Shown here: one piece after another, positions 6,890-60,071 of the stretch | Position numbering within the stretch: the stretch's first letter is position 1 | Layout of the letters: each line of letters opens with the position of its first letter | Source: Prevotella sp. | GTDB taxonomy: Bacteria > Bacteroidota > Bacteroidia > Bacteroidales > Bacteroidaceae | Direction of reading: 5' to 3' | Assembly (NCBI GenBank): GCA_017443345.1 | Contig: JAFSNR010000097.1 | Location: 1 to 64,000, forward strand | DNA length: 64,000 nucleotides | Translations under genes and position numbers: made by a program | The notes under the pieces: generated by a model | Told to the model about the DNA's origin: nothing | Seen by the model: only the letters and a program-made list of their open reading frames with translations | The model's database searches: none

Positions 6890-7135
6890 ATGTAACAATG
6901 TAACTTTGTAACATTGTAACATTAAGCACTAACAGAGTGTAGGACTTTGCCATCAACACTCATGACAAATGACAGATGACAGTTATAGAAAAAGAAAGGA
7001 AAAAGAAAAGTTATTATTATATATATTAAAATATATATAATAATAATACTATATACTCTCTCAAAATCAAAAAACTGTCATCTGTCATCTGTCACAGACC
7101 TTAATGTTACAATGTTACATTGTTACAAAGTTACA
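6890..7135. repeat. Nested inverted array of TGTAACnn and ATGACAR units around an AT core
   Basis: This fills most of the 401-base gap between uvrC and dtd. The outer left arm (6890-6925) has four TGTAAC units at 8-base spacing ending in ATTAAG; the outer right arm (7100-7135) is its reverse complement except that two of the two-base spacers are swapped. Inside these, 6963-6984 and 7073-7094 form a second inverted pair built from 7-base ATGACAR units with one mismatch. The centre, about 7010-7050, is a near-perfect AT palindrome (TTATTATTATATATAT and its complement). The whole could form a long hairpin or cruciform. No reading frame of note lies in it. Confidence 0.85.
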
Positions 7136-7167
7136 AAATGCGGAATCAGAGAAATAAGAAGCCAAAA

Positions 7168-7199
7168 TTTGGTCAATTCAGAATAAAGTCGTAACTTTG
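7168..7199 (+). promoter_or_regulatory. Promoter of the dtd-deoC operon
   Basis: TTTG at 7168-7171, 20 bases, then TAACTTTG at 7192-7199, an exact fit to the Bacteroidetes -33/-7 pattern. The predicted transcript starts about 12 bases before dtd. Confidence 0.7.
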
Positions 7200-7217
7200 C
7201 CGAAAAATCAGAAAGAG

Positions 7218-7670
7218 ATGAGAGCAGTCGTACAGAGAGTAAGCCACGCAAGCGTCACTATAGAGGGCACGGTCAGAAGCCAGATAGGAGCAGGCTTCCT
7301 GATTCTGCTGGGCATCTGTAACGAGGATACAAACGAAGACGTAGAGTGGCTGGTTAAAAAGATAGCCAACCTGAGGGTGTTTGATGATGTGGATGGGGTC
7401 ATGAACCGCAGCATCATGGACATCGCCGGCGAGGCCCTCGTAGTGAGCCAGTTCACACTCTATGCCAGCTATAAGAAAGGTAATCGCCCCAGCTGGTTCA
7501 AAGCAGGCTCACATGAGCACTCTATCCCACTCTATGAGGCCTTCTGCACCCAACTTTCAGAGGCCATAGGGAAGCCAGTAGGAACAGGAGAATTTGGGGC
7601 AGACATGAAGGTCGAGATCTTGAATGATGGACCTGTAACAATATGTATGGACACTAAAAATAAAGAATAA
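7218..7670 (+). CDS. dtd: D-aminoacyl-tRNA deacylase
   Basis: 150 residues from ATG 7218 (MRAVVQRVSHASVTIEG). The enzyme removes D-amino acids (and glycine from tRNA-Ala) mischarged on tRNA. The family-defining SQFTLY and the C-terminal NDGPVTI with its cis Gly-Pro are both present, as is GNRPSWF. An upstream in-frame TTG at 7197 is inside the -7 promoter element and is not a start. First gene of a rightward operon with two small membrane proteins, a MazG-like protein and deoC. Confidence 0.95.
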   Translation: MRAVVQRVSHASVTIEGTVRSQIGAGFLILLGICNEDTNEDVEWLVKKIANLRVFDDVDGVMNRSIMDIAGEALVVSQFTLYASYKKGNRPSWFKAGSHEHSIPLYEAFCTQLSEAIGKPVGTGEFGADMKVEILNDGPVTICMDTKNKE

Positions 7671-7693
7671 ATCAACCTAAACACTTACCTATT

Positions 7694-7972
7694 ATGAATA
7701 CGAAAGAGATCTTAAAGCATCCTGCAGCCAAATGGGGATTCTTATTCCTATTTATGTTTGCATTACAGGTACTACCAATCCCTATTAAGAAATGGATTCT
7801 CATCGTGTTTCTGATTCTTTCGCCAATTATTCCAATTTGGGGACTGACAAAATGGAAACAGAACAGCAAACTAATGAATTACGAATGGATCGGACTGCTG
7901 GTTATTATCATCGTAGCCTGGGCATTGCTTTTATACTTTATTGGACCAAACATTATATTTAGCTTCGAATGA
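7694..7972 (+). CDS. Small integral membrane protein, function unknown
   Basis: 92 residues with about three hydrophobic segments: WGFLFLFMFALQVLPI, WILIVFLILSPIIPIW and WIGLLVIIIVAWALLLYFIG. No motif that I recognise. It lies 23 bases after dtd and its stop overlaps the start of the next small membrane gene (ATGA), so translation of the two is probably coupled. The pairing suggests a two-protein membrane unit, but no function can be named. Confidence 0.7.
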   Translation: MNTKEILKHPAAKWGFLFLFMFALQVLPIPIKKWILIVFLILSPIIPIWGLTKWKQNSKLMNYEWIGLLVIIIVAWALLLYFIGPNIIFSFE

Positions 7973-8217
7973 AAAAGTATCTTAGAGAAATAGAATTTGC
8001 AGGGGTGATTCTGGCGTCTACTGGAATCGTCAACTCACTGATTTGGGGTTCGATTTATGGCGGATGGATCTGCGGAATCGGTATCCTGCTGATGCTGATC
8101 GTATTCCTCTATAAAGCCTTTCACTGGAACGAATATGCCCGTGAAAATAAGCAATATATCTGGATTATCCTACTGACGATAGCCCTATTATTCATTCAAA
8201 TGTTAAGAGCAAGATGA
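7969..8217 (+). CDS. Small integral membrane protein, function unknown
   Basis: 82 residues, three likely membrane segments (FAGVILASTGIVNSLIWGSIY, WICGIGILLMLIVFLYKAF, YIWIILLTIALLFIQML). It overlaps the preceding gene by 4 bases and the following MazG-like gene by 4 bases, so it is translationally embedded in the dtd-deoC operon. Not recognised further. Confidence 0.7.
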   Translation: MKKYLREIEFAGVILASTGIVNSLIWGSIYGGWICGIGILLMLIVFLYKAFHWNEYARENKQYIWIILLTIALLFIQMLRAR

Positions 8218-8540
8218 CCATCAAAGAAGCACAAGAAGCAGTGGATCGCTGGATCAAGGAATACGGCGTGAGATACTTTTCGGAACTGACGAATATGGCG
8301 GTTTTAACGGAAGAAGTGGGCGAACTGGCACGTGTGATAGCCCGCAAATATGGTGACCAGAGTTTCAAGGAGGGCGAGAAAGACAATCTGGGCGAAGAGA
8401 TGGCAGATGTGCTTTGGGTACTACTTTGTCTGGCTAATCAGACTGGCGTAGACCTAACAGAAGAGCTCCAGAAATCCATCGAAAAGAAGACACAACGAGA
8501 TTCATTACGACATATTCATAACAAAAAATTATTAGCATAA
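8214..8540 (+). CDS. MazG-like nucleotide pyrophosphohydrolase
   Basis: 108 residues, an all-alpha single-domain NTP pyrophosphohydrolase. The metal-binding pattern EExxE...ExxD is visible as LTEEVGELARVIARKYG near residue 31 and NLGEEMADVLWVLLCLAN near residue 60. These proteins hydrolyse (d)NTPs, often non-canonical ones, to the monophosphate. Its place between dtd and deoC suggests nucleotide and translation-quality housekeeping. The precise substrate cannot be read from sequence. Confidence 0.88.
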   Translation: MTIKEAQEAVDRWIKEYGVRYFSELTNMAVLTEEVGELARVIARKYGDQSFKEGEKDNLGEEMADVLWVLLCLANQTGVDLTEELQKSIEKKTQRDSLRHIHNKKLLA

Positions 8541-8546
8541 TTAATT

Positions 8547-9482
8547 ATGGCAGAACACAATCACGAACATGAGCATCATCACCACCAGGAGATGCCTCAG
8601 AAGAGCCTGATTGAAGAGGCTCTGGGTAAGTATAACCTCGACATCAACGACGAGGAGGTAAAAGAAGCTGTGAAGAAAATCATAGCTGAAAAAGTGCATG
8701 AGAATGACAACCTGGAAACTAAGAAATTCCTGATGGGAAGTGTGGAACTTACCACGTTGAAAACGACAGATTCTGATGAGAGCGTCATGGCATTCACAGA
8801 GCGAGTCAACGAGTTCGACGAGCAGTATCCTGACCTACCCCATGTGGCCACCATCTGTGTCTATCCACGTTTCGCAAAGGTTGTAGCAGAAACCCTTGAG
8901 GTCGACGGTGTAGAAATCGCTTGCGTATCAGGCTCATTTCCAAGCTCTCAGGCCTTAATTGAGGTCAAAACGGTTGAGACATCACTGGCAGTAAAAGACG
9001 GTGCCACAGAGATTGATATGGTACTTTCTGTTGGTGCTTTCCTCAGTGGCGACTATGAGACTGTATGCGATGAAATCCAACAAATGAAGGAGGCATGTGG
9101 CGACAAGAAGATGAAGGTAATTCTTGAAACTGGTTGCCTGAAGACTGCCAGCAACATCAAAACTGCCTCATTATTAGCTATGTATGCCGGTGCTGATTAC
9201 ATCAAGACTTCAACAGGAAAAGAGCAACCTGCTGCAACTCCAGAAGCAGCCTACGTGATGTGTCAGGCCATTAAGGAATACTACGATGAAACGGGCATTC
9301 AGATTGGATTCAAGCCTGCTGGTGGACTGAATTCTGTGATGGATGCATTGATCTACTACACCATCGTCAAAGAGGTTCTTGGAGAGAAATGGCTGACTAA
9401 CCAGTGGTTCCGGATGGGCACTTCTCGTCTGGCTAACCTGCTGCTCAGCGAAGTGATTGGCGAGGAAGTGAAATTCTTCTAA
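8547..9482 (+). CDS. deoC: Deoxyribose-phosphate aldolase
   Basis: 311 residues. DeoC cleaves 2-deoxyribose-5-phosphate to acetaldehyde and glyceraldehyde-3-phosphate in deoxynucleoside breakdown. The catalytic set is visible: GATEIDMVLSVGA (Asp), the Schiff-base Lys in ADYIKTSTGK and the activating Lys in GFKPAGG. The protein is longer than the 220-260 residue norm because of an N-terminal extension that begins with a natural His-rich run (eight His between residues 4 and 14) before the TIM barrel. Last gene of the operon; the terminator at 9516-9539 follows. Confidence 0.94.
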   Translation: MAEHNHEHEHHHHQEMPQKSLIEEALGKYNLDINDEEVKEAVKKIIAEKVHENDNLETKKFLMGSVELTTLKTTDSDESVMAFTERVNEFDEQYPDLPHVATICVYPRFAKVVAETLEVDGVEIACVSGSFPSSQALIEVKTVETSLAVKDGATEIDMVLSVGAFLSGDYETVCDEIQQMKEACGDKKMKVILETGCLKTASNIKTASLLAMYAGADYIKTSTGKEQPAATPEAAYVMCQAIKEYYDETGIQIGFKPAGGLNSVMDALIYYTIVKEVLGEKWLTNQWFRMGTSRLANLLLSEVIGEEVKFF

Positions 9483-9515
9483 AAGCCAAAGAAAATGAAA
9501 TCTTAGAAATAATGA

Positions 9516-9539
9516 ACCCCTCCGAGTTTGGAGGGGTTA
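9516..9539. terminator. Bidirectional terminator between deoC and the polyprenyl synthase gene
   Basis: AACCCCTCC, loop GAGTTT, GGAGGGGTT: a perfect 9-pair stem with T-rich flanks on the right side, placed between two converging genes. Confidence 0.8.
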
Positions 9540-9543
9540 TTTG

Positions 9544-10518
9544 TTACACGTTTCTCTGAATCACATAATCCAGATAAGCCTTGTAGGCTTGTTTAAGCTC
9601 TGGTTTCACGCATTCATCGATATATTTCTGAGCTTCTTTAGCAAACTCTTCCATCTTCTTTTCAGCATATTCAATGCCACCATTTTGCTTCGTAAACTCG
9701 ACCAAAACTGCGATTTCATCGTTGTTGATAGTGCCGTTTTTAACTTTCTTGGCAAGCGTGTGCATCGCCTGCGAATCAGAATGATTCAGCGCATAGATCA
9801 CAGGCAGCGTTAACTTACCTTCAGTCATATCATTACCTGTGGGTTTACCTATTTCCTTGGAATCGTAATAATCGAAAATATCATCGCGAATCTGGAAAAT
9901 CATACCGATATTATGTCCGAACTTTTTGGCCTTCTCGACCTCTTCTGGATCTACGCCTACGGAGATAGCACCAAGGGCTGCACAAGCTTCGAAAAGAACA
10001 GCTGTTTTCTGGTCAATAACCTGATAATAAACATCTTCCGAGATTTCCTGATTGGAAATATTAGAAAGTTGAAGGATTTCACCAGCAGCAAGAGTCCTAC
10101 CAAGTTGAGCAAGTTGCTGTACTATTTCATTATTTTTTGATAGTGCTACTCGAAGCAAAGCAGTAGAGAGGATATAATCACCTACGAGCACAGCCACCTT
10201 ATTATCATAGGTGGCATTAACAGAAGCCTGACCACGTCGCTCATTACTCTCATCAACCACATCGTCATGAACCAAACTGGCCGTATGAAGCAATTCCAAA
10301 CCAAGGGCAGCATTCTGAGTAACCTCTGATACCTCACCATAGTTCTTGGCAGACAAGAGAATCAGCATAGGACGCATCCTCTTTCCACCACGTTTACGGA
10401 TATGTGAAAGGACATGCTCAAGCAATCCATCACCATGAGTCAGACTCTCATTGAACAATACGACGAAATCGTTCATTTCCGTCGCTATAGGTCTTCTAAT
10501 CATAGCTAAGTAATCCAT
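9544..10518 (-). CDS. Polyprenyl (octaprenyl-type) diphosphate synthase
   Basis: 324 residues from ATG 10518; a GTG one codon earlier is the alternative start. Long-chain trans-isoprenyl diphosphate synthase, supplying the side chain of menaquinone. The first aspartate motif is in LLHTASLVHDDVVDESNERRG and the second in FQIRDDIFDYY, with KRMRPML for substrate binding. The residue just before the first DD motif region is small, in keeping with long products, but chain length is not certain from sequence. Stand-alone gene, converging on deoC, diverging from polA. IspB or a similar name would fit. Confidence 0.92.
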   Translation of the reverse strand: MDYLAMIRRPIATEMNDFVVLFNESLTHGDGLLEHVLSHIRKRGGKRMRPMLILLSAKNYGEVSEVTQNAALGLELLHTASLVHDDVVDESNERRGQASVNATYDNKVAVLVGDYILSTALLRVALSKNNEIVQQLAQLGRTLAAGEILQLSNISNQEISEDVYYQVIDQKTAVLFEACAALGAISVGVDPEEVEKAKKFGHNIGMIFQIRDDIFDYYDSKEIGKPTGNDMTEGKLTLPVIYALNHSDSQAMHTLAKKVKNGTINNDEIAVLVEFTKQNGGIEYAEKKMEEFAKEAQKYIDECVKPELKQAYKAYLDYVIQRNV

Positions 10519-10607
10519 CACAAACTAAATTTTTCGATACAAAAATAGTAAAAAAGGTTGGATTTCAAAGAAAATTAAGTAATTTTACACCGAAAATTAA
10601 GAAAGTT

Positions 10608-13373
10608 ATGCAGAAATTGTTCCTTTTAGACGCTTATGCGCTCATTTATCGCAGTTATTATGCGTTCATCAAAAACCCTCGAATCAATTCGAAAGGTCTC
10701 AATACCAGTGCTATTATGGGCTTCCTGAACACGCTCAATGAGGTGCTCACAAAAGAGCAACCTACACATATTGGCGTGGCCTTCGATCCTCATGGCCCAA
10801 CCTTCCGTAGTGAGGCGTTTCCTGAATATAAGGCCCAGCGAGAAGAGACACCAGAGGATATTCGTAAGGCTGTTCCCATCATCAAGGATTTGTTAAAGGC
10901 TTACCGTATCCCAATCCTGCAAGTCGATGGGTACGAGGCAGATGACGTCATTGGAACACTGGCTTCGAAGGCTGGCGCAGCAGGCATAGAGACCTTTATG
11001 CTGACACCAGATAAAGACTATGGACAATTGGTTCGAGATAATGTCTTTATCTTCCGTCCACGACATGGAGGTGGTTACGAGACGATGGGACCTAAGGAGG
11101 TCTGCGAAAAATACGGCATTCCATCGACCAATTCCGTCATCGACCTTCTGGCGCTGATGGGCGACTCAGCAGATAACTTCCCTGGGTGTCCTGGAGTTGG
11201 TGAGAAGACAGCTGTGAAACTTATCAACGAATTTGGGAGCATCGAACAGTTGATCGCTCGTTCATCAGAGATCAAGGGTAAGCTTCGCGAAAAAGTAGAG
11301 GAGCATGTCGATGATATCAAGATGAGTTACTACCTCGCTACCATCAAAACGGATGTGCCCATCGAACTCGATATGGAAAATTTGAAGCTCGTCGAGCCCA
11401 ACGAGGACGAACTTGGCAAATTGCTCCTCGAACTGGAGATGAAGAGCTTCGCAGACCGAGTTCTTAAAAAAAGCCAAAAACCGCAAATTCCCGTTAACGG
11501 ACAACTCGATTTATTTGCAGAATTTCCGTCCGATGGTTCGAATCTTAGCGAAAACTCGAGTTTTGAGAGCCTTAAAACGACCCCTCACGACTACAAACTC
11601 GTTGAAAATGAGGAAGATTTGCTGAAATTACGTGATTATTTCTTGACAAATGAAATTTTCAGTCTAGACACAGAAACGACATCAACCTCTTCCATCGACG
11701 CAGAATTGGTGGGTTTGAGCTTCGCTGTGAAAGAATTCGAAGCGTTTTATGTGCCCATTCCTGCAAAACGTGAAGAAGCGTTGCGAATTGTTAATATCTT
11801 TAAAGAGGTGTACGAGAATGAGAAAATCTTAAAAGTCGGACAGAATCTGAAGTACGACCTCGAGGTGCTTCGTAACTATGGCATCGAATTGAAAGGTAAG
11901 ATGTGGGACACGATGATTGCCCACTACCTCATCCAACCTGAACTTCATCACAACATGGACTACATGGCTGAGATCTATCTCAACTACCAGACTATCCATA
12001 TTGATGAACTCATAGGTCCCAAAGGCAAAAACCAAAAATCGATGCGCTCTCTCCTACCCTCTCAAGTTTATGAGTATGCTGCAGAGGATGCTGACATCAC
12101 CCTGCGTCTGAAGAACAAGTTGGAACCTGAGCTGAAGAAGTTTGAGTGCGAAGACCTCTTTTATAATATAGAGATGCCATTGATGCCTGTTTTAGCTGAG
12201 ATGGAGATGAATGGCGTTTGTCTGGATACTGAATCACTAGCAGAGACGTCAAAACAATTCACCAATCGTATGAACGAGATTGAAGCGCGTATCTACGAAC
12301 TCGCAGGTGAACAGTTTAATATTGCCTCACCAAAACAAGTTGGTGAGATCCTCTTCGACAAACTAAAAATCGTAGAAAAAGCCAAGAAGACCAAGACTGG
12401 TCAATACGTCACTTCTGAGGAGGTTCTCCAACAACTGCGAAACAAACATGAAATCGTTGCAGACATCTTGGAACACAGAGGATTAAAGAAACTCATAGGC
12501 ACCTATGTAGAAGCCCTTCCTAAACTGATTAATCCTCGCACAGGACATATTCATACCTCATTTAATCAGACGATTACTGCCACAGGCCGCTTGTCAAGTA
12601 GCGATCCTAACCTTCAGAATATCCCTATTCGTGGCGAAGATGGTAAAGAAATCCGTAAAGCTTTTGTGCCAGAGCCTGGTTGTCTGTTCTTTTCAGCAGA
12701 CTATTCTCAGATAGAACTTCGTGTGATGGCCCATCTGTCGCAGGATGAAAACATGGTAGAGGTTTTCCGTGAGGGCAAGGATCTCCACGCAGCTACTGCA
12801 GCCAACATCTATAAGAAACCTATTGAAGAGGTGACTCGCGACGAACGTACCAAATCGAAGCGTGCCAACTTTGGTATCATCTATGGTATTACCGTCTTTG
12901 GTTTGGCAGAGCGCTTGGACATCCCTCGCGACGAAGCTAAGATGCTGATAGACGGCTACTTCGCAACCTTCCCACAGGTCCATGATTATATGGAAAAATC
13001 TAAAGAAGTGGCTCGTCAGAAAGGATACGTCACTACCCTATTCGGACGTCGTCGCTATCTGCCAGACATCAATTCGCATAATGCCACTGTTCGAGGCTTT
13101 GCTGAGCGAAATGCCATCAATGCCCCCATTCAGGGCACTGCTGCTGATATCATCAAGGTGGCCATGATTAAGATCTTCAATCGCTTCAAGGCTGAAGGCA
13201 TCAAGAGCAAGATGATTCTCCAGGTGCACGACGAACTCAACTTCTCCGTATACCCAGAAGAAAAGGAGAAGGTAGAGCGCATCGTCATCGAAGAGATGCA
13301 GTCTGCCTTCCCCCTTAGTGTTCCACTGGTTGCTGATTCCGGCTATGGCCAAAACTGGCTCGAAGCCCACTAA
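10608..13373 (+). CDS. polA: DNA polymerase I
   Basis: 921 residues with all three activities. The 5' nuclease domain covers about residues 1-290 (DAYALIYRSYYAF, GYEADDVIGTLA). The 3'-5' exonuclease appears intact: FSLDTETTS near residue 354, GQNLKYDLEVL, and YAAEDADITLRL with the YxxxD motif. Polymerase motifs A (DYSQIELRV), B (RTKSKRANFGIIYG) and C (QVHDELNF) are at their expected places. The start follows a weak TAATTTTA element; the downstream gene converges 6 bases after the stop with no clear terminator. Confidence 0.97.
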   Translation: MQKLFLLDAYALIYRSYYAFIKNPRINSKGLNTSAIMGFLNTLNEVLTKEQPTHIGVAFDPHGPTFRSEAFPEYKAQREETPEDIRKAVPIIKDLLKAYRIPILQVDGYEADDVIGTLASKAGAAGIETFMLTPDKDYGQLVRDNVFIFRPRHGGGYETMGPKEVCEKYGIPSTNSVIDLLALMGDSADNFPGCPGVGEKTAVKLINEFGSIEQLIARSSEIKGKLREKVEEHVDDIKMSYYLATIKTDVPIELDMENLKLVEPNEDELGKLLLELEMKSFADRVLKKSQKPQIPVNGQLDLFAEFPSDGSNLSENSSFESLKTTPHDYKLVENEEDLLKLRDYFLTNEIFSLDTETTSTSSIDAELVGLSFAVKEFEAFYVPIPAKREEALRIVNIFKEVYENEKILKVGQNLKYDLEVLRNYGIELKGKMWDTMIAHYLIQPELHHNMDYMAEIYLNYQTIHIDELIGPKGKNQKSMRSLLPSQVYEYAAEDADITLRLKNKLEPELKKFECEDLFYNIEMPLMPVLAEMEMNGVCLDTESLAETSKQFTNRMNEIEARIYELAGEQFNIASPKQVGEILFDKLKIVEKAKKTKTGQYVTSEEVLQQLRNKHEIVADILEHRGLKKLIGTYVEALPKLINPRTGHIHTSFNQTITATGRLSSSDPNLQNIPIRGEDGKEIRKAFVPEPGCLFFSADYSQIELRVMAHLSQDENMVEVFREGKDLHAATAANIYKKPIEEVTRDERTKSKRANFGIIYGITVFGLAERLDIPRDEAKMLIDGYFATFPQVHDYMEKSKEVARQKGYVTTLFGRRRYLPDINSHNATVRGFAERNAINAPIQGTAADIIKVAMIKIFNRFKAEGIKSKMILQVHDELNFSVYPEEKEKVERIVIEEMQSAFPLSVPLVADSGYGQNWLEAH

Positions 13374-13379
13374 TACAGC

Positions 13380-13898: not shown

Positions 13899-13929
13899 TC
13901 TTAGTAATCATTTTTGTTGTTCGATGGTG

Positions 13930-13988
13930 CAAAGATAAGCAAAATATCTAAATATATTTTGTTTTTCGCGCTTTTTACACTACCTTTG
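13930..13988. promoter_or_regulatory. Divergent promoters for the DUF3237 gene (-) and ychF (+)
   Basis: Leftward TATCTTTG lies at 13930-13937. Rightward TTTG at 13958-13961 is followed after 19 bases by TACCTTTG at 13981-13988. Both fit the Bacteroidetes consensus. Confidence 0.6.
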
Positions 13989-14016
13989 CAGCCGAAATAA
14001 ACGTTTATAGAAGAAA

Positions 14017-15117: not shown

Positions 15118-15119
15118 GT

Positions 15120-20161: not shown

Positions 20162-20575
20162 GAGATCTTATTATTTCATCCCTCCCGTCATCCCTCCCAT
20201 ATCTCTCCCGTCACCCTCACATATCTCTCCCGTCACCCTCCCATCTCTCTCACATGACCTCTCATATCATTGTTTTCATATCTTTTGAGTTTTTTTGTAC
20301 AAAATGGCATCTGGTCAAAAGAGGCCGTTTTTGCTACTATACTATGAAAAAATTGCGGGATAGTTAGGAAAAAAGTTTTTGATAGTATAGTAGCAAAAAC
20401 CGGGTAGTAACCCCGTTTCCGAAAAACAATGACAAAATTTGATTTGATGGGAAAAAGTGTCTGAAAAAGCACGCTTTGAAAATCGAGACCATATTAGAGG
20501 TTATCCCGTAATCGGAGTGCTTGATGTGAGAGGTCATGGGAGGGATGACGGGAGAGATTTGGGAGGGATTTAAGC
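20162..20575. repeat. Inverted array of CCCTCCCGTCAT-like units
   Basis: The left arm, about 20176-20268, is a run of 11-12 base units of the type YCTCYCRTC (CCCTCCCGTCAT, CTCTCCCGTCAC, CCCTCACATAT and so on), ending ATGACCTCTCATATC. The right arm, 20523-20570, is the inverse: GATGTGAGAGGTCATG, then GGAGGGATGACGGGAGAGA. A further inverted fragment lies at 20575-20588 and 20625-20638. Between the arms is AT-richer DNA containing a separate hairpin element (20327-20400). Confidence 0.8.
20327..20400 (+). repeat. 74-base hairpin element, copy 1
   Basis: A perfect 19-base inverted repeat (GTTTTTGCTACTATACTAT at 20327-20345 and its complement at 20382-20400) encloses GAAAAAATTGCGGGATAGTT and flanking bases. 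A second copy in the opposite orientation lies at 21806-21877, with the internal sequence also conserved, so the whole element and not only the stem is repeated. Confidence 0.8.
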
Positions 20576-20734
20576 CATCCCTCCCGTCCTGAAACCCAAG
20601 TCTGCAAAGGCTTTTCCGAAGAAAATGGGAGGGATGGGGCTATTTCTACACAACCATACAAAAAGCTTTATAACTCATAGGGACAGATGTCCCGTGAGTT
20701 AACCCGCCGGACCTGTCCCCCGTGGGTTCGTCGC

Positions 20735-21190
20735 ATGCTTCAAGGCGATTTGCCAACCTATCGTATTGCGCCTCATCCACTGAATATCGAGGGTAGGGGA
20801 GAAGGCATCATCGTGGGAGGCAACCTCTCTGTCTACAATGATCTCGCTGGTTCTGACTTCAATCCGCTGTTGCTGCCAGACATCATCCTCTTTATGGAGG
20901 ATACAGGCGAGGGCATGAGTAAGGTGGATCGTATGCTCCACAATATGGAGATGAGAGGACTTATCTCGCACGTTCGAGGCATTATCGTGGGACAGTTCAA
21001 CAAATACAAACACCCAGAGAACGGCTTCGACGATATGTACGCGATGCTCCACGAATATATGAAGCACTACAACATCCCCGTCTGCTTCGACTTCCCCGTA
21101 GGCCACGCTCACCTTCGCAACTTCCCATTATTAACAGGCGCCAAGGCCACCCTCGAAGTTTCTTCTGAAGGTGTTGTACTAAGATATTAG
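20735..21190 (+). pseudogene. LD-carboxypeptidase (peptidase family S66), N-terminal half missing
   Basis: About 151 residues from MLQGDLPTYRIAPHPLNIEGRGEGIIVGGNLSVYNDL to the natural stop match the C-terminal half of S66 muramoyl-tetrapeptide carboxypeptidases, which trim the terminal D-Ala of peptidoglycan tetrapeptides in recycling. The catalytic Glu region (IEGRGEG) and His (PVGHAHLRN) are present, but the about 150-residue N-terminal half with the nucleophile Ser is absent. Upstream the frame runs into repeat DNA (SRELTRRTCPPWVRR) of no relation. The remaining half is uninterrupted, so the loss may be recent or the fragment may be retained. No promoter is evident. Confidence 0.8.
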
Positions 21191-21805: not shown

Positions 21806-21877
21806 TTTTTGCGGCTATACTAGAAAAAACGTTTTTCCTAACTATCGCGCAAATTTTTCATAGTATAGTAGCAAAAT
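21806..21877 (-). repeat. 72-base hairpin element, copy 2 (inverted relative to copy 1)
   Basis: Read on the reverse strand, this begins TTTTGCTACTATACTATG and continues AAAAATTTGCGCGATAGTTA, matching copy 1 at 20327-20400 closely. Its second arm has two or three changes, so the stem is imperfect. The two copies bracket the LD-carboxypeptidase remnant and the orphan promoter. Confidence 0.75.
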
Positions 21878-21939: not shown

Positions 21940-22117
21940 CGATGACAGCGATGACGATGACACGATGACAGGGGGGTAATTTATTTTTTTGAGGTAGGAA
22001 TCTTTTATTATTCTATTTATCATAATACTTATAATAATAGATATAATATCCCCTCTTTTCCGTAGCGATGACAAAAATATCCCCCTGTCATCGGTGTCAT
22101 CGGTGTCATCGTCAGCG
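21940..22117. repeat. Inverted array of CGATGACA units around an AT-rich core
   Basis: Left arm 21940-21977: CGATGACAG, CGATGA, CGATGACA, CGATGACAGGGGGG. Right arm 22079-22117 is the inverse: CCCCCTGTCATCGGTGTCATCG, then GTGTCATCGTCAGCG. The about 100-base core is AT-rich with TTATTATTCTATTTATCATAATAC-like palindromic runs. Same architecture as 6890-7135 but with a different unit. It lies in the gap 21191-22158, which holds no gene. Confidence 0.8.
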
Positions 22118-32469: not shown

Positions 32470-33119
32470 AAATAGTATTCGCAACCAACAACCAACATAA
32501 GCTCTCCGAGATTCGTTCGATTCTCGGAGAGTCTATTGAAGTACTGTCATTAAAGGATATCAACTGCGACGTAGATATTCCTGAGACAGGCACTACACTC
32601 GAGGAAAACGCCCTTCAGAAGGCACAGTATGTCTATGATCATTACCACATCAGTTGCTTTGCTGACGATACTGGCTTGGAGGTCGATGCGCTCGATGGAG
32701 CGCCTGGTGTCTATTCTGCTAGGTATGCAAGTATGGCTAGTAATTCTAGTCAGACTAGTTCGACTAGTATCTCTAGCCCTGCCAGCCACGATTCTGAGGC
32801 GAATATGACGCGATTACTGAAGGAATTAGGAAATAATAACAATCGCAAAGCAAGATTCCGTACTGTTATTGCGTTAATATTAAAAAAGGATGTATGCCCC
32901 TGTGGCTGCACGTCGATCAAGGAAGTCCATCAGTTCGAGGGAATCGTCAATGGCGAGATTATCCGAGAGCGTAGGGGAGGGGAGGGCTTTGGCTACGATC
33001 CCATCTTCCAGCCTGATGGCTACGACCAGACATTCGCTGAACTGGGAATGGAAATCAAGAACCAAATCAGCCATCGAGCACGTGCCACCCAGAAACTGGC
33101 AGAATTCTTAAAGAAGTGA
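32466..33119 (+). CDS. rdgB: RdgB/HAM1 non-canonical purine NTP pyrophosphatase with Ser-rich insertion
   Basis: 217 residues versus about 195 for relatives. It cleans (d)ITP and XTP from the nucleotide pool. [38 protein letters not shown], and [34 protein letters not shown] are the family motifs. The extra length is about 19 residues ([19 protein letters not shown]) inserted between ARYA and HDSEANM, in a surface loop near the active-site lid. The insert is encoded by a tandem 9-base repeat with CTAG in register (32737, 32746, 32755, 32764, 32773). The reading frame is kept. Overlaps yitT by 4 bases and porZ's region follows. Confidence 0.93.
32719..32781 (+). repeat. In-frame 9-base CTAG tandem array inside rdgB
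   Basis: CTAG occurs at 32737, 32746, 32755, 32764 and 32773, exactly every 9 bases, and also at 32719 in the same phase. Each unit has the form CTAGTnnnn and encodes Ser plus two further polar residues. CTAG is normally rare in bacterial DNA. Confidence 0.8.
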
Positions 33120-33220
33120 AAAGTTTAGAAGTGAAAAGTGAAAAGTATAGGATGAAGAGCGATTGGTGGCAAAGATTCTTGTCACTACTTTTCACCTTTC
33201 ACCTTTCACTTTTAACTTTC
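33113..33220. repeat. Inverted array of GTGAAAR units spanning the porZ start
   Basis: Left arm 33113-33147 (GAAGTGAAAAGTTTAGAAGT and on, units GTGAAAAGT) and right arm 33186-33220 (CTTTTCACCTTTCACCTTTC and on) are inverse arrays with a 38-base centre. The left arm covers the rdgB stop codon; the right arm lies inside the porZ coding sequence and encodes the hydrophobic core of its signal peptide. Confidence 0.75.
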
Positions 33221-35071
33221 TCTCAGGTTGGTACTTGGCGAAACTATCTTGCCTATCACCAAGTGCAGAGTATCTGTAAGGCAGTCGATGAACTATTCGT
33301 GCTGGCTTCGAATGATCTCTATCAGTATAACATGAATGACCAGAGTATTACCACTTACGACAAAATCAATGGCCTCAGCGATACCCACATCACCCATATC
33401 GCCTGGAGCCAGCAGGCTAAGCGACTGATAGCCGTTTATCAGAATGCCAATATCGATATCGTAGAGACAGATGGCGACATCATCAATATCGCTGCGCTCT
33501 ACAATAAATCGATGACAGAGGACAAGACTGTCGACAGCATCTCGATAGAGGGTATCTACGCTTATCTGCATTGTGGCTTTGGCATCGTGAAGGTGAATCT
33601 GCAAAGGGCAGAAATATCAGAGACCTATACGCCCAATATGCCTGATTATCCGCAAGGCCTGACTGCCTATCAGGATAACTACGATGAATATATCAATACT
33701 GTAGCTAGCCTGAATCCTGGAGGACCTGCCTATAATCACTTCTACGAGGCAAAATTCCTAAATGGCAATCTCTATACCACTGGAGGCTATTTCCTACCTA
33801 GTATTCCTGATAATCAGCTGCCTGGCATCATCCAGACCTTTGATGGAAATAACTGGACACTCTATGAAGAAGGAATTAGCGAAAAGACGGGTTATAAATA
33901 TGAGGATAACTGCTGTATCGATGTCGATCCTACAAATGCAGACCATGTCTTCGTAGGAGGAAAATGCGGACTCTATGAGTTTCTGAACAATCAACTGGTT
34001 GCCTATTATAACAAGGATAATAGTCCTTTGAAGGGTGCCAACGACAGAGGGACTGAATTAGGCAATGACTTTGTGCTGATTCTTGGCATAAAATTCGATG
34101 CTCAGGGAAATCTTTGGGTTCTGAACAGTATGGCAAAAGGTGTGAGTCTATTAAAACTCTCACCAAATCATGAATGGACGGATCTTCATCAGCCATTACT
34201 CACTGACGAAGCTGGAAACACTTTGGCAGGACTCAGAGATATGACGATCGACAGTCGAGGACTGCTCTGGTTCGTGAATAATAACTGGCAGGATCCATCG
34301 CTCTTCTGTTATGATATGGAGAACGATAAACTCATCAAATACAACAACTTTACGAACCAGGATGGTGTGAAATACGATATCACCTGGGCCTATTGTGTCG
34401 CTGAAGACAGAGATGGAAATATCTGGGTAGGTACAAACTCAGGACCATTCTTGATTCAGAAGCAGGAAATAGGGCAGGAGAGTGTGACCTTCAATCAGGT
34501 GAAAGTGCCTCGTAACGATGGTACAAACTATGCTGACTATCTGCTCTCAGGCGTCAGTATCAGCAGTATCGCCATCGATGGTGGTAATCGTAAGTGGTTT
34601 GGTTCGAATGGAGCAGGTGCTTTCCTGATCAGTGCTGACAATCTGGAACAAGTCCATAACTTCACGACAGACAATTCCAAGCTGATCACCAACAATATCT
34701 CTTCCATTGCCATCAATCAGAAGTCAGGCGAAGTATTCTTCCTCTCAGATGATGGTCTGTGCTCCTATATGAGCAACGCCATCGAACCTGAAGAGGAGAT
34801 GACAAAAGACAATATCTGGGCTTATCCTAACCCAGTGACGCCTGACTATACAGGACTGATTACTATTACTGGTCTCAGCTATGATGCAGATGTGAAAATC
34901 GTAGCCTCAAATGGTGCTCTGATAGCTGAAGGACGCAGTAATGGAGGTATGTTTACATGGGATGGTTGCGACCAAAAAGGGCGTCGCGTAATAAGTGGCA
35001 TTTATTTCGTAGTAAGTGCCACTTCCGAGGGCAGAAGTGGCACTTGTTGCAAAATAGCAGTTATCCGTTGA
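33152..35071 (+). CDS. porZ: PorZ-like type IX secretion-associated beta-propeller protein
   Basis: 639 residues from ATG 33152; a GTG at 33116 is possible but lies in the repeat arm. A signal peptide (LSLLFTFHLSLLTFSQ) precedes QVGTWRNYLAYHQVQSICKAVDELFVLASNDLYQYNMNDQS, the conserved opening of PorZ. Two-component-regulator-type propeller blades follow (IWVGTNSGPFLI, RKWFGSNGAGAFL), and residues about 555-639 form a C-terminal sandwich (NIWAYPNPVTPDYTGLITITGLSYDADVKI...GRRVISGIYFVVSA) like the type A sorting domain. PorZ is a surface member of the attachment complex that links T9SS cargo to A-LPS. Last gene of the leuS unit. Confidence 0.78.
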   Translation: MKSDWWQRFLSLLFTFHLSLLTFSQVGTWRNYLAYHQVQSICKAVDELFVLASNDLYQYNMNDQSITTYDKINGLSDTHITHIAWSQQAKRLIAVYQNANIDIVETDGDIINIAALYNKSMTEDKTVDSISIEGIYAYLHCGFGIVKVNLQRAEISETYTPNMPDYPQGLTAYQDNYDEYINTVASLNPGGPAYNHFYEAKFLNGNLYTTGGYFLPSIPDNQLPGIIQTFDGNNWTLYEEGISEKTGYKYEDNCCIDVDPTNADHVFVGGKCGLYEFLNNQLVAYYNKDNSPLKGANDRGTELGNDFVLILGIKFDAQGNLWVLNSMAKGVSLLKLSPNHEWTDLHQPLLTDEAGNTLAGLRDMTIDSRGLLWFVNNNWQDPSLFCYDMENDKLIKYNNFTNQDGVKYDITWAYCVAEDRDGNIWVGTNSGPFLIQKQEIGQESVTFNQVKVPRNDGTNYADYLLSGVSISSIAIDGGNRKWFGSNGAGAFLISADNLEQVHNFTTDNSKLITNNISSIAINQKSGEVFFLSDDGLCSYMSNAIEPEEEMTKDNIWAYPNPVTPDYTGLITITGLSYDADVKIVASNGALIAEGRSNGGMFTWDGCDQKGRRVISGIYFVVSATSEGRSGTCCKIAVIR

Positions 35072-44860: not shown

Positions 44861-44912
44861 AATAATTACAAGTTTGTTTCTTTTAATTCTAAATTCTTAA
44901 ATCTTAATTCTC

Positions 44913-51297: not shown

Positions 51298-51306
51298 CTC
51301 AGAAGT

Positions 51307-52338: not shown

Positions 52339-52359
52339 AGTTTTCGTCGATTGTTGTCG

Positions 52360-54095: not shown

Positions 54096-54105
54096 AGCAT
54101 CATTC

Positions 54106-55746: not shown

Positions 55747-55828
55747 AATTCTTTTTCACGATTTCGATTGCAAAGATAATGAATTTTTTCCTTTTGCCAT
55801 CTATCTGACACAGTTTTTTTACAAAAAA

Positions 55829-56395
55829 CTATGCGAACAGGTGGGAAACGAGAATCTTCACACCAATCAGGATAAGAATGACACCTCCCAGAAGCTCTGG
55901 CTTCAGGCGATGGGCGATGGCCTTGCCGAAACGCGTACCGAGCCTGTTGCCAATGATGCTGAAAAGGAAAGAGACCACCCCGATAATGACCAGTGGCAGC
56001 ACCAGCTGCGAGAGCTGCTGATAACCTGTACAGGCGAAAGAAATGCCCACGGCGAGAGCGTCGATACTCGTGGCAATGGCCAGTAGCAGCTGGGTGCGTA
56101 GCAGGTTGGGATTGAAATGCTGATGTTCTTCCTCTTCTGAACTGAAGGCCTCACGGATCATGTTGCAGCCGATCATCAACAGCAGACTGAAGGCTATCCA
56201 GTGGTCGTAGGCTTCGAGTTGTGTACTGAAGTAGCTGATACCCAACCACCCCAGCAATGGCATCATCGCCTGGAAGAAGCCGAAGAAAAAAGCCATGCGC
56301 AGCACACCTCCACCCAACACCCCACTGACGATGGATACCGCAAAGCAGTCCATAGCCAGCGCAATGGCTAAGAAGATAATATCCAGGAGGTTCAT
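55829..56395 (-). CDS. mntP: Manganese efflux pump MntP
   Basis: 188 residues from ATG 56395, six membrane helices. The two conserved acidic helices LAIALAMDCFAVSIVSG and LLLAIATSIDALAVGISFACTG carry the metal-transport Asp residues. SSEEEEHQHFNPN forms an acidic central loop. It exports Mn(II). No yybP-ykoY riboswitch fits between the promoter (TAACTTTG, complement of 56432-56439) and the start, so regulation must be other. Confidence 0.93.
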   Translation of the reverse strand: MNLLDIIFLAIALAMDCFAVSIVSGVLGGGVLRMAFFFGFFQAMMPLLGWLGISYFSTQLEAYDHWIAFSLLLMIGCNMIREAFSSEEEEHQHFNPNLLRTQLLLAIATSIDALAVGISFACTGYQQLSQLVLPLVIIGVVSFLFSIIGNRLGTRFGKAIAHRLKPELLGGVILILIGVKILVSHLFA

Positions 56396-56431
56396 ATAGT
56401 ATTTGTTTGTCTGATGATTACATTTTGACTG

Positions 56432-56490
56432 CAAAGTTACAAAATAATTTAGAATTTAGAATGATGAATTAAGAGTTTTTTGTATCTTTG
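56432..56490. promoter_or_regulatory. Divergent promoters for mntP (-) and the alpha-galactosidase (+)
   Basis: Leftward TAACTTTG at 56432-56439 and rightward TATCTTTG at 56483-56490. The 43 bases between contain two AATTTAGA-type units in tandem. Confidence 0.6.
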
Positions 56491-56526
56491 CACTCAGAAA
56501 CTAAAATCAATAACTAGCATTCTCAT

Positions 56527-58713
56527 ATGAAGAAATTTCTGTTTTTTGCATTACTGCTCACTTTGGCTCAGGGAGTCAAGGCAGAGACGGTCGTTCTCCA
56601 GACCAAGAACACAACGATGGTTCTGAACGTGGATGAGGGGAAACAGCCCCAGTATGTGTATTATGGTGCCAAACTGAGCGACTACGATCTGCAGCATCTG
56701 CAGAAGCCTCGTGGTGGCCGCATGGATGCCTATCCTGCCTATGGCATGAACTGTCCTGCTGAGGCAGCACTCGCCATGACCCATGCCGATGGCAATCTCT
56801 CATCTGATATCGTGGCTACAGGCGACATCAAGAAAGAAGGCACCACCACCCGTATCCGTTTGAAGGATACCATCTATCCCGTGACTGTAGACCTTTGCTA
56901 TAAGGTTTATGCTGATGAGGACATGATCGAGACTTGGACGGAAATCCAGAATGGTGAGGCCAAGCCCGTTACGCTGACGCAGTTTGCCTCTTGCTCGCTG
57001 CCCATCCGTCGTGGTAACGTTTGGCTGAGTTCGTTCTACGGCTCTTGGGGTAATGAGGCTATTCTCTGTGAGGAACCTCTGACACCAGGTGAGAAGATTA
57101 TCAGAAACAAGGATGGTGTGCGCAATGCCCATACATCGCACGGTGAGGTGATGTTCTCACTCGACGGCAAAGGTCAGGAGAACTGTGGTGATGTCATCGG
57201 AGCTGCCGTTGTCTATAGCGGCAACTACCAACTGAAGGTGGAGACAGATGACACAGACTACCACTACTTCTTCGCAGGTATCAACCCCGACAATTCTGCC
57301 TATCACCTGAAGAAGGGTGAAACCTTTGCTACGCCTGCCATTGCCTTGAGCTTCTCAAAAGAAGGACTCTCTGGCGTGAGCCGTAACTTCCACAAGTGGG
57401 GACGTAACTATAAGCTGGCTCATGGCAACAAGGAGCGCAAGATTCTGCTGAACTCTTGGGAAGGTGTCTATTTCGACATCAATCAGGAGGGTATGGACCA
57501 GATGATGGGCGACATTGCCTCAATGGGTGGTGAACTCTTCGTGATGGACGATGGCTGGTTTGGCGTGAAGTATCCACGTAAGACGGACAACTGCGCCCTT
57601 GGCGATTGGGAAGTAGACAAGAACAAGTTGCCTGAAGGTATCGAGGGTCTGCTGCGCGATGCCAAGAAGCATGGTATCAAGTTCGGTATCTGGATTGAGC
57701 CAGAGATGTCGAACACGGTTTCTGAGCTCTATGATGCTCATCCCGACTGGATCATCAAGGCCCCCAAGCGTGAGCCAGTCTTGGGTCGTGGAGGTACGCA
57801 GGTGGTGCTCGATATGGCGAATCCCAAGGTACAGGACTTCGTGTTCTCCATCGTCGACAACCTCATGACGAAATATCCTGAGATCGACTATATCAAGTGG
57901 GATGCCAACATGTCGATCATGAATCATGGTTCGCAGTATCTGACAATGAACGACCAGAGCCATCTCTATATCGAGTATCATCGTGGTTTCCAGAAGACCT
58001 GCGAGCGCATCCGTGCCAAGTATCCTGACCTGACGATTCAGGCTTGTGCCTCTGGTGGTGGACGTGCTAACTGGGGTGTGCTGCCTTATTTCGACGAGTT
58101 CTGGGTGAGCGACAATACCGATGCCCTGCAGCGCATCTATATGCAGTGGGGAACCTCTTACTTCTTCCCTGCTATCGCTCAGGCCTGCCATATCTCTGCA
58201 ACCCCCAATCATACCGTTCATCGCACCACCTCCCTCAAGTATCGTATCGATGTGGCTATGAGTGGACGTCTGGGTATGGAGATCCAGCCCAAGCACATGA
58301 CGGATGCGGAGAAGGATATCTGTCGCAAGGCCATCAAGGAGTATAAGGAGATTCGTCCTGTCGTACAGTTTGGCGATATCTACCGCCTTGTTTCCCCATA
58401 CGATAAGAAGGGTCTCGCCTCACTGATGTATGTGAACGAAGCCAAGACGAAGAGCGTCTTCTTCTGGTGGAAGACGGAGTCATTCCAGAATGAGCATCTG
58501 CCACGCGTGAAGATGGCCGGCCTCGATGCCAAGAAGATGTATAAGATACACGAGCTGAACAGCATCGACGTGAAGCCGATGGACATAGAGGGCAAGATCT
58601 TCAGTGGCGAGTATCTGATGAACAACGGCCTGGAGATTCCTCGCAGCAACAATCCAGAGTGGAACATGCGCAGCGACTGGAGCAGCCGCGTCCTCTCCCT
58701 CGAGGCTCAGTAA
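56527..58713 (+). CDS. Secreted GH36 alpha-galactosidase
   Basis: 728 residues with a signal peptide (MKKFLFFALLLTLAQGVKA). The N-terminal beta-supersandwich is followed by the catalytic barrel: ILLNSWEGVYFDI, FVMDDGWFG, FGIWIEPEMSN, nucleophile Asp in YIKWDANMSI near residue 459, CASGGGRANWGVLPYFDEFWVSDNTDAL with the acid/base Asp near 529. It removes terminal alpha-galactose from raffinose-family oligosaccharides or galactomannan. A C-terminal beta domain completes the protein. No SusCD pair adjoins it. A strong terminator follows at 58737. Confidence 0.95.
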   Translation: MKKFLFFALLLTLAQGVKAETVVLQTKNTTMVLNVDEGKQPQYVYYGAKLSDYDLQHLQKPRGGRMDAYPAYGMNCPAEAALAMTHADGNLSSDIVATGDIKKEGTTTRIRLKDTIYPVTVDLCYKVYADEDMIETWTEIQNGEAKPVTLTQFASCSLPIRRGNVWLSSFYGSWGNEAILCEEPLTPGEKIIRNKDGVRNAHTSHGEVMFSLDGKGQENCGDVIGAAVVYSGNYQLKVETDDTDYHYFFAGINPDNSAYHLKKGETFATPAIALSFSKEGLSGVSRNFHKWGRNYKLAHGNKERKILLNSWEGVYFDINQEGMDQMMGDIASMGGELFVMDDGWFGVKYPRKTDNCALGDWEVDKNKLPEGIEGLLRDAKKHGIKFGIWIEPEMSNTVSELYDAHPDWIIKAPKREPVLGRGGTQVVLDMANPKVQDFVFSIVDNLMTKYPEIDYIKWDANMSIMNHGSQYLTMNDQSHLYIEYHRGFQKTCERIRAKYPDLTIQACASGGGRANWGVLPYFDEFWVSDNTDALQRIYMQWGTSYFFPAIAQACHISATPNHTVHRTTSLKYRIDVAMSGRLGMEIQPKHMTDAEKDICRKAIKEYKEIRPVVQFGDIYRLVSPYDKKGLASLMYVNEAKTKSVFFWWKTESFQNEHLPRVKMAGLDAKKMYKIHELNSIDVKPMDIEGKIFSGEYLMNNGLEIPRSNNPEWNMRSDWSSRVLSLEAQ

Positions 58714-58736
58714 GGAAATATGTTTCTATATTCAAC

Positions 58737-58779
58737 GAAATACCCCCTTTACCTACATAGTTGGCAAAGGGGGTATTTC
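58737..58779 (+). terminator. Terminator after the alpha-galactosidase gene
   Basis: GAAATACCCCCTTT and AAAGGGGGTATTTC form a perfect 14-pair stem with a 15-base loop, followed by TTT. Confidence 0.85.
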
Positions 58780-58782
58780 TTT

Positions 58783-58907
58783 ACCATGCCTGTGGCTGGA
58801 TCCCATGCCAATGAACCAACCATCTGACCCCATAACTTTACGTCAACAATCAAATCTTCCATCGCCTCTGCACTGATAGAACAGCGTGTAACGCGATTTT
58901 GAAAGTC
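58783..58907 (-). pseudogene. HipA N-terminal fragment (relic)
   Basis: On the reverse strand MEDLIVDVKLWGQMVGSLAWDPATG (ATG at 58862) resembles the start of HipA-type kinases (VxLWGxxVGxLxxD). The resemblance ends at about 58783 where the frame enters the alpha-galactosidase terminator and stops at 58749. Nothing of the kinase domain remains, and no HipB-like gene is near. The rest of 58714-59101 is AT-rich with no gene apart from the promoter at 59076. Confidence 0.4.
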
Positions 58908-59075
58908 TTTTCTTATCCATATCTATAGTTTCATTTTAGCTTTCGCACCAAATAATTCATATTCGCCTACAAAGATACACATTTTTTAGAACTAATATAG
59001 TTACATGGGGGAAAAAATTCAAAAAACAAGACAACTTTTTTGAACTATATACTTGCATATCTGGAAAAAAATGAT

Positions 59076-59083
59076 TACCTTTG
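59076..59083 (+). promoter_or_regulatory. -7 element for the HU-like gene
   Basis: TACCTTTG, 18 bases before the ATG at 59102. Confidence 0.6.
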
Positions 59084-59101
59084 TAGGAAAAAAGGGAAGT
59101 T

Positions 59102-59725
59102 ATGCCGAGAAAGAACAGTGGAATGTGGTATGAGGTTCATCCGACACCGGTGAAGGGCGAGGACGGGAAGAACCTGGTGTATGTGCGTCCGAAGAGTGGA
59201 ATGAAGCTGACGATGAGGCAGCTGGAAGAATACTGCGAGCGCACTTACAACCTGAGATATAGTGAGATGAGTCGAGCCTTCGATGTCTTCATCCGTGCGG
59301 CAGGAAGGTTCTTGGCTGAGGGCTACCGCATCGATACGCCCATCGGCTCGTTTGCCCCCAAGCTGTCGCTGACGAAGCAAGTGACTGATTCCGACTTGGT
59401 GAAGGATCGCGACGTGAGGCTCGACGGCGTGGAATACAACCCAGGCAAGTTCTGGAATGAGGAGATGAAGAAATGGCACGACGGCTTCCGTCGCTATCAG
59501 AATCCTGACACGCAGGAGATACTGGCCGACAAGGAGAAACTGGAGCAGATGATGCGTGAATGCATTCAGAAATATCATGGTTACATCACGGCTGGTCTGT
59601 TCGCCCGCTATACAGGATTGACCCTCTACTCGGCCCGCAAGCAGCTGAACGAGTGGACCAAGGGCGATAATCCCAAACTGCTGAAAACGCCTCGTGGCAA
59701 AGAGCATATTTACACGGAGATATAA
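59102..59725 (+). CDS. HU-related DNA-binding protein with C-terminal helical domain
   Basis: 207 residues. The first about 125 residues (MWYEVHPTPVKGEDGKNLVYVRPKSGMKLTMRQLEEYCERTYNLRYSEMSRAFDVFIRAAGRFLAEGYRIDTPIGSFAPKLSL) match the Bacteroidales HU-like family, in which the IHF/HU fold is kept but the DNA-binding arm differs. Residues about 145-207 (LEQMMRECIQKYHGYITAGLFARYTGLTLYSARKQLNEWTKGDNPKLLKTPRGKEHIYT) look like a winged helix. It may organise DNA or regulate the neighbouring genes. It precedes a repeat-rich gap and the unknown/primase-like pair. Confidence 0.82.
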   Translation: MPRKNSGMWYEVHPTPVKGEDGKNLVYVRPKSGMKLTMRQLEEYCERTYNLRYSEMSRAFDVFIRAAGRFLAEGYRIDTPIGSFAPKLSLTKQVTDSDLVKDRDVRLDGVEYNPGKFWNEEMKKWHDGFRRYQNPDTQEILADKEKLEQMMRECIQKYHGYITAGLFARYTGLTLYSARKQLNEWTKGDNPKLLKTPRGKEHIYTEI

Positions 59726-59766
59726 GTTGGACATTAATATTTTTTGCGTTTGAAATCGGGTATAGT

Positions 59767-59802
59767 CACACGACCGTTTGCGTATAGGCGAACGGTCGTG
59801 TG
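59767..59802. repeat. Hairpin after the HU-like gene with repeated GCGTATAGG
   Basis: CACACGACCGTT (59767-59778) and AACGGTCGTGTG (59791-59802) form a perfect 12-pair stem; GCGTATAGGC is in the loop and again right after it. The T-tract of a terminator is missing. Confidence 0.65.
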
Positions 59803-59927
59803 CGTATAGGCAAGCGATGGAAAGGTACGGACTTTCTCCCTGTTACCCTTAACCCTTTCCCCTGCAAGCCTTAATCCGCGTACCTTTTAGCTTTAGTATT
59901 CTATCTTCACTGAAAATGGTTACGGTT

Positions 59928-60071
59928 ACAGCTGTAACCATGTAACCGCTAAGAGGAGAAAACAAGGATTAAGACATCTTAATCTATTCATTTACAGATA
60001 TTTATGCGGTTATTATATCTTGCTCGTAGAGGTATTGGTTACATGGTTACAGCTGTAACCATGTAACCGTT
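59928..60071. repeat. Paired palindromes of GGTTACAT units
   Basis: GGTTACGGTTACAGCTGTAACCATGTAACC (about 59928-59957, itself a palindrome centred on AGCT) recurs as GGTTACATGGTTACAGCTGTAACCATGTAACC at about 60038-60068. The 80 bases between are AT-rich (TTATTATATCTTG and so on). Same architecture as the other inverted arrays. It lies in the gap 59726-60141, which otherwise has only the promoter at 60094. Confidence 0.8.

Follow-up and report, generated by a model that had tools for sequence, protein, structure and literature searches.

The subject of this study is a class of inverted pairs of short tandem arrays in a 64-kb stretch of a Prevotella sp. genome (GenBank assembly GCA_017443345.1, contig JAFSNR010000097.1, positions 1 to 64,000; hereafter the window). 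Two of these pairs, one between uvrC and dtd and one at the start of porZ, were followed through related genomes. At uvrC-dtd the presence of an array is inherited and its repeat unit is not, and at both sites the two arms of a locus match each other better than they match the arms of other species. An earlier sequence-only reading had proposed an arm-core-inverted arm plan at five places of the window, and had named arms evolving independently as one outcome that would speak against it; in the tests at both sites the arms were mirrored, and this outcome did not arise.

Arms and units at orthologous sites

For uvrC-dtd we collected 54 loci, the best among those of two genome sets in which 53 of 60 and 170 of 200 genomes had a match; uvrC lay upstream in 47. 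For the mirror test a gap of 240 nt or more was required, which left 23 loci, none of them picked for arm match. Unit labels, here and at porZ, were assigned by eye. Arrays around an AT-rich core were present in 13 of these 23 loci, with nine different units. The units are given below; the locus in the last line has a gap too short for the mirror test.

TGTAAC: G000, G020 and G175
GTGAC: G032 and G220
TGCCAC: G181
TGTTCA, with outer TGACAG: G223
TTGCAA: G135
TTGCAG: G075
TGTGAA: G114
TGACAG: G105 and G112
GGTCAT: G007
GTTAA: G004

All 13 loci with an AT-rich core (at least 35 of 40) had an arm match score of at least 40, and the other ten scored 25 or less. Over the 23 loci the mean score of own arms was 38.4 compared to 16.8 across species, and none of 20,000 permutations reached the observed value. 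The own right arm was top-ranked in 12 of the 13 loci, and second-ranked for the window. On a tree of 47 rows, array presence was clustered (7 changes; shuffled mean 12.2; 0 of 500 shuffles as low) and unit labels were not (13 changes against a mean of 13.9 in 200 shuffles, 17 of which were as low). All five species of one clade (support 99/90) have arrays, among them four units; ATTAAG stands at both inner ends in four of these species and is thus common to different units. The sister species G007 and G135 (support 100/97) carry different units, G135 having an estimated contamination of 7%. In the G007 gap (locus L007), about six 22-nt direct repeats (GGAGGAAGCTCGCAGGCCTTGA) stand directly before the left array.

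Thirty porZ loci were fetched, the best 30 of 182 genomes with a match. Six units occurred in pairs (GTGAAAA, GGTAAAAA, GTGAAYA, GATAAAT, AATAAAG and AAATAAA), four loci had a right-hand GTCAAT-like array only, and eight, one of them doubtful, were labelled as having none and have ordinary short signal peptides. G035, labelled none, resembles a decayed array, and the GGTAAAAA label of G020 is weak. The right arm encodes the signal peptide, and the start codon falls in the loop between the arms. The mirror test covered 30 loci (29 of the 30, one being truncated, plus G007) and gave an own-arm mean of 28.5 compared to 16.8 across species, again with 0 of 20,000 permutations as high. These full sets of 23 and 30 loci are unbiased; permutations within the G004 set and within a 16-locus porZ subset are biased by selection for arm match. 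The sister species G018 and G160 (100/100) differ in their porZ unit.

At frr-rsgA we considered 80 named relatives, the best of 367 that were confirmed (Prevotella, Xylanibacter ruminicola and related species), allowing periods 6-10 for single arrays. The stretch examined holds an array in 27 of the 80, all of period 7 (one arm was called as 14) and with many different units, and there are four inverted pairs among the 27. The window's own genome has GTTAGNG arrays on both sides of the rsgA start (L043:10894-11179), the right-hand one inside the gene, where it adds LSPLTPHPSPLTPHPSPL to the protein. Contig G114:C11 is collinear with the window from 1 to 43 kb, except at about 18.7-28.6 kb, and has paired arrays at the same two sites as the window, with different units; G025 has one of the two. 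The 20.2- and 21.9-kb pairs of the window fall in the non-collinear part, outside this comparison.

Arrays of the window and their distribution

A combined inverted- and tandem-repeat search found inverted arms at all five places that the sequence-only reading had listed (6.9, 20.2, 21.9, 33.1 and 59.9 kb). Its description of the arms as tandem units of 6-12 bases holds for 6.9, 21.9 and 33.1 kb, which are inverted pairs of 7-9-nt tandem arrays. It does not hold for 20.2 kb, where the unit is 22 nt, or for 59.9 kb, where the arms are overlapping GTTAC palindromes with no 6-12-nt tandem array. The 6.9-kb element lies between uvrC (4972-6816) and dtd (7197-7670) and is a nested double, with TGTAACAW outside, ATGACAG inside and an AT palindrome at the middle. 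The 33.1-kb pair covers the end of a Ham1-family gene together with the porZ start. The features are as follows.

6889-6926, plus strand: left outer array of four TGTAACAW units, with the end ATTAAG
6962-6984, plus strand: left inner array, unit ATGACAG
7011-7046, no strand: central AT-rich palindrome of the 6.9-kb element
7073-7094, minus strand: right inner array, mirroring 6962-6984
7100-7137, minus strand: right outer array, mirroring 6889-6926 with the order of two units swapped
20176-20270, plus strand: left arrays of the 20.2-kb place, 22-nt unit
20327-20400, no strand: palindrome with a 28-nt stem between the 20.2-kb arms
20522-20569, minus strand: right arrays of the 20.2-kb place
21940-21982, plus strand: left array of the 21.9-kb pair, unit CGATGACA
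22074-22111, minus strand: right array of the 21.9-kb pair, unit TGTCATCGG
33107-33147, plus strand: left array GTGAAAA over the end of the Ham1-family gene, 5' of porZ
33186-33226, minus strand: right array, in frame as the hydrophobic PorZ N-terminus
44883-44911, no strand: single weak heptamer array (score 44) in the gap between two genes
59918-59948, plus strand: left arm of overlapping GTTAC palindromes
60037-60068, minus strand: right arm of the 59.9-kb place
62262-62299, no strand: single heptamer array (AATTCTCAATTGTC...), in frame within the open reading frame (ORF) 61686-63848

Single-arm relatives had been suggested at three further places. The one at 44.88 kb is the weak 7-nt array listed above; Tandem Repeats Finder gave 1.9 copies of 14 nt at 46.09 kb and, at score 40, reported no array at 56.45 kb. 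The array at 62262-62299 is additional to the loci named before.

Stretches were folded as single DNA strands and compared with shuffles. The z-scores were -13.2 at 6885-7140, -8.5 at 59918-60066, -3.5 at 21965-22095 and -2.8 at 33100-33230, where 3 of 200 shuffles were as good; at 20.2 kb the value of -9.3 is that of the core hairpin only (20320-20405). A strict detector, which demands tandem repetition in both arms, called three pairs in the window (6.9, 21.9 and 33.1 kb), that is, three of the five places. The sequence-only reading had also named an array density equal to that of composition-matched random sequence as speaking against its pattern. In ten local dinucleotide shuffles per set no pair was called except one in the order set (E. 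coli was left unshuffled), so that three pairs in the window stand against none in its ten shuffles, above chance.

Outside the window its own genome gave 12 strict pairs in 986 kb: none in a first part of 207 kb, three in a second of 390 kb, which was picked after removal of stretches bearing GTGAAAAG and is thus possibly array-poor, and nine in a third of 389 kb, selected for holding GTGAAAAG. The window, with three strict pairs in 64 kb, is richer in them than the remaining own-genome DNA examined. Twenty congeners gave 13 strict pairs in 392 kb, and the congener G004, pursued since its first stretch was rich, gave 25 in 393 kb, in agreement with the family-level pattern that had been proposed. 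Twenty other families of the order gave two in 318 kb, both from one genome, and E. coli K-12 none in 50 kb. The array class extends across this genus and is concentrated in it.

A census of all tandem arrays of period 4-24 above a score was made in five Prevotella-like sets, two of which had been taken at the site of a known 7-nt repeat or in its surroundings. It yielded 321 arrays, 149 of period 7 and 64 of period 8 (213 of 321), and a single one of period 4-6. The three sets not picked by a 7-nt repeat contributed 47 arrays of period 7 and 37 of period 8 among 161. Three shuffles per set gave almost no arrays, and the order set of other families gave nine. Partners within 400 nt were scored for 285 arrays: 63 had an inverted partner only, 21 a direct partner only, 11 both and 190 none, while in G004 an inverted partner was present for 24 of 32. 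Inversion is favoured, not enforced as the sequence-only reading had it.

Some neighbouring features are recorded here. The ORF that hosts the 62262-62299 array has a sub-threshold DUF3987 match; an HU-HIG gene, the GTTAC arms and this DUF3987-like ORF are grouped at 59102-63848, and at two G007 loci (L138 and L146) a similar gene starts after similar GTTAC arms. Over 2913 nt, the stretch 58729-61641 shares 99.2% identity with a short contig of the congener G006, a match that may reflect either recent transfer or mixed bins; despite it, the Dtd proteins of G006 and the window are just 76% identical. By eye, 20327-20400 and 21818-21877 are inverted copies, 1.4 kb apart, of a palindromic repeat (GCTACTATAC...GTATAGTAGC), and similar TTGCTACTATTAATGCTAGCAA palindromes occur at uvrC-dtd in G025 and G112. 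Between the 20.2- and 21.9-kb pairs, 20687-21190 is probably a gene remnant, because it matches the C-terminal domain of LD-carboxypeptidase (PF17676) alone.

Possible origins of the arrays

We lean, with somewhat less than even confidence, towards resident inverted array pairs whose arms are rebuilt together through 7-8-nt slippage and template switching across the hairpin. Within an arm, the polymerase would slip in a 7-8-nt register and so make and spread unit variants, and the growing strand would copy one arm from the other when a hairpin forms at the replication fork. The AT-palindrome cores may assist hairpin formation or arm copying, and an array would persist where it is harmless, as at gene junctions, in a signal peptide or in a loop of RsgA. 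With slippage and template switching, no special enzyme would be needed to account for arrays that are mirrored and local and that change their unit. At 6.9 and 59.9 kb the process looks local, because a search of the window's own genome gave no other match to either unit among the candidates that were scored (17 of 19 and 19 of 40, respectively). Stem mismatches over 29 loci comprised 25 G.U and 28 A.C pairs; since there is no wobble excess, arm pairing is probably kept at the DNA level. Homogenisation of inverted-repeat arms through template switching has been described (PMC7202029, PMC8604942, PMC8794818), and arms alike within a lineage, as at such quasipalindrome sites, are found at both uvrC-dtd and porZ.

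Several observations weigh against slippage with template switching. Unit labels were somewhat clustered on the porZ tree (31 rows; 16 changes, minimum 7; shuffled mean 20.0; 0 of 200 as low), and therefore there is some inheritance of the unit. The majority of arrays have no partner within 400 nt, and no mutation was observed in progress. In other species, similar copies of an element built on ATGACAG occur at other loci; to judge from these copies, some array families disperse. Invariant 6-nt cores with variable 2-nt spacers would not be expected from plain slippage. In the window's eight TGTAAC units the core does not vary and the spacer is AA, TT or AT, and a fixed core with a loose spacer is likewise seen at uvrC-dtd in G032, G181 and G223. 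Finally, the genome counts of GTGAAYA, which are 97, 44, 23, 17 and 5 where porZ has GTGAAYA and 0-6 in 15 others, are left unexplained and hint at something genome-wide. A simple rule, by which porZ would carry whichever unit is commonest in the genome, was rejected: four of the five GTGAAYA genomes top all 15 others, the fifth falls within their range, and no link between porZ unit and genome count was found for GTGAAAA or GGTAAAAA. The invariant cores and the GTGAAYA counts keep binding-site and trans-acting rivals alive. Distinctly improbable in our judgement is an undescribed array-exchange process of Prevotella-like bacteria, in which the two arms of a fixed hairpin would together be given a new 7-9-nt word, the place being inherited and the word not; acting in trans, it would reach many sites of a genome, as the GTGAAYA counts hint. 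If true, such a process could leave a species-specific mark on the DNA.

A doubtful but serious contender is a set of small mobile elements, similar to miniature inverted-repeat transposable elements (MITEs) or foldback elements, with array-built ends and with transposases acting in trans at favoured sites; species would then differ in the family present at each site. The ATGACAG element with its AT palindrome recurs at other loci in G020, G018 and G007 with 78-85% identity over about 133-142 nt, GGTTACA-armed elements with a similar core stand at two unrelated G018 loci (L149 and L154, by eye), and fly foldback transposons have internally repetitive terminal inverted repeats (PMC3573991). However, nine G004 elements have unit and inner end in common and unrelated loops (1 of 72 ordered comparisons above 60 shuffles). 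No whole cassette is therefore moving in G004, and one mobile sequence, which the sequence-only reading had also dismissed, was rejected. With arms alike and loops unrelated, the G004 family has long tandem-built inverted ends and a varied middle and is foldback-like; internal sequence common to copies, a MITE trait, is lacking in the nine G004 elements and present in the ATGACAG element. Mobile elements also sit poorly with the different units at the two paired-array sites common to the window and G114:C11, and with ATTAAG inner ends common to different units at uvrC-dtd. A search limited to Y1 transposases (PF01797) gave no match in 5 of 14 genomes; the window's own genome is among the five, and four of them (G000, G020, G032 and G181, 92-97% complete) bear arrays. 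A third G018 locus, L139, has by eye a core similar to those of L149 and L154, with a single GGTCACA arm.

That the arrays are binding sites of sequence-specific proteins, with cores held by selection and changing with protein specificity, we think unlikely. The invariant cores with loose spacers agree with this idea, as does the location of the uvrC-dtd arrays upstream of the dtd start, but a TGTAAC unit with no other match in its own genome among the candidates scored is odd for a trans factor with many sites, and units that differ even in the sisters G007 and G135 would require many parallel changes in step. Strong folding and the porZ start codon in the loop would suit RNA hairpins (terminators or translation switches) whose pairing is under selection in the transcript, a very improbable reading given the following. 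The stems have no wobble excess, on which ground RNA-level selection was rejected. Intergenic arrays of period 7-8 in own-genome stretches lie chiefly at co-directional junctions (47 of 60, with 7 of 60 convergent; background 144 and 51 of 274), contrary to what two-way terminators between convergent genes would lead one to expect, and these were rejected as well. No Rfam match was obtained in the window at the gathering score, and a known RNA was rejected on this ground. We give next to no credence to a dedicated writer that rewrites the arrays, such as an RNA-templated reverse transcriptase or a comparable enzyme. The sharp period, the units changing in both arms and the GTGAAYA counts would fit it, but PF00078, the only enzyme sought for it, had no match in 6 of the 14 genomes searched (several of the 14 are incomplete), including G004 (99% complete), whose 393 kb examined held 25 strict pairs. 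The array-bearing genomes have neither a reverse transcriptase nor a Y1 transposase in common, and a writer of either kind, RAYT or reverse transcriptase, was rejected on the several array-bearing genomes with no match. The sequence-only reading had supposed one process for all loci; slippage plus hairpin copying fits best, and its alternative of an active repeat-writing system has no positive evidence.

Relation to known repeats and meaning

Part of this is already known, namely inverted heptamer pairs in Xanthomonas (PMC4692102) and a wide heptamer preference (PMC4679880). The GGGAATC heptamer repeats of Xanthomonas form two inverted arrays at 70 and 75 places, and between two species the single or paired type is mostly kept while sequence and length vary (PMC4692102). 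As in Xanthomonas, the arrays here are 7-nt tandem arrays, many per genome, part of them in close inverted pairs. Unlike the single unit described there, many units occur within the genus, exchanged at the same site with arms matching each other, and the AT-palindrome cores and nested arms are a further difference. A single G-rich unit across sites and species, the Xanthomonas trait, is not found: there are nine units at uvrC-dtd and six paired ones at porZ.

TAACTGA heptamer repeats are reported from Beggiatoaceae, Cyanobacteria and five Bacteroidetes (PMC4679880), and heptamer long simple sequence repeats in general from Mrazek 2007, as cited there. The likeness to cyanobacterial repeats drawn by the sequence-only reading is fair, but inverted heptamer pairs had been described before, in Xanthomonas. 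The marked 7-nt excess that defines long simple sequence repeats of heptamers is present here, and shared with them are the heptamer preference, the proposed slippage and short arrays near gene starts; the TAACTGA type differs in having direct arrays of one fixed unit, with a single inverted case in the genome described (PMC4679880). Quasipalindrome template-switch hotspots (PMC7202029, PMC8604942, PMC8794818) likewise have arms made alike by copying one another; they have no tandem arrays in the parts of the sources covered, and template switching is the mechanism proposed here.

Long, internally repetitive inverted ends with varied middles are shared with the Drosophila foldback transposons Galileo and Tetris (PMC3573991, PMC4079207), which are eukaryotic mobile elements, whereas here sites persist, units change and a transposase is not known. 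BrickBuilt, a MITE of Porphyromonas gingivalis, also in the Bacteroidales, has tandem repeats in an intergenic inverted-repeat element (PMC4596501), but as 23-nt direct repeats between small inverted ends, whereas in the present case it is arrays that make up the arms. REPINs with RAYT transposases (PMC3116915, PMC3733652) are similarly short, dispersed inverted structures, as described there palindromes without tandem units, and the Y1 transposase is missing from several array-bearing genomes here. No publication on such arrays in Prevotella came to light in literature outside preprints and most subscription papers, and none that described fixed sites with mirrored arms where the unit is exchanged. 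This exchange of units at fixed sites is what is new.

Sequence is the usual basis for classifying bacterial repeats; in these arrays it is exchanged, and what persists is the place and the mirror plan. These loci make testable both the dominance of heptamers in bacterial tandem repeats and the way in which inverted arms remain alike. In them nature has recorded how DNA would be reshaped by hairpins and slippage, and how arrays turn into protein, in the signal peptides of porZ and in a stretch of RsgA.

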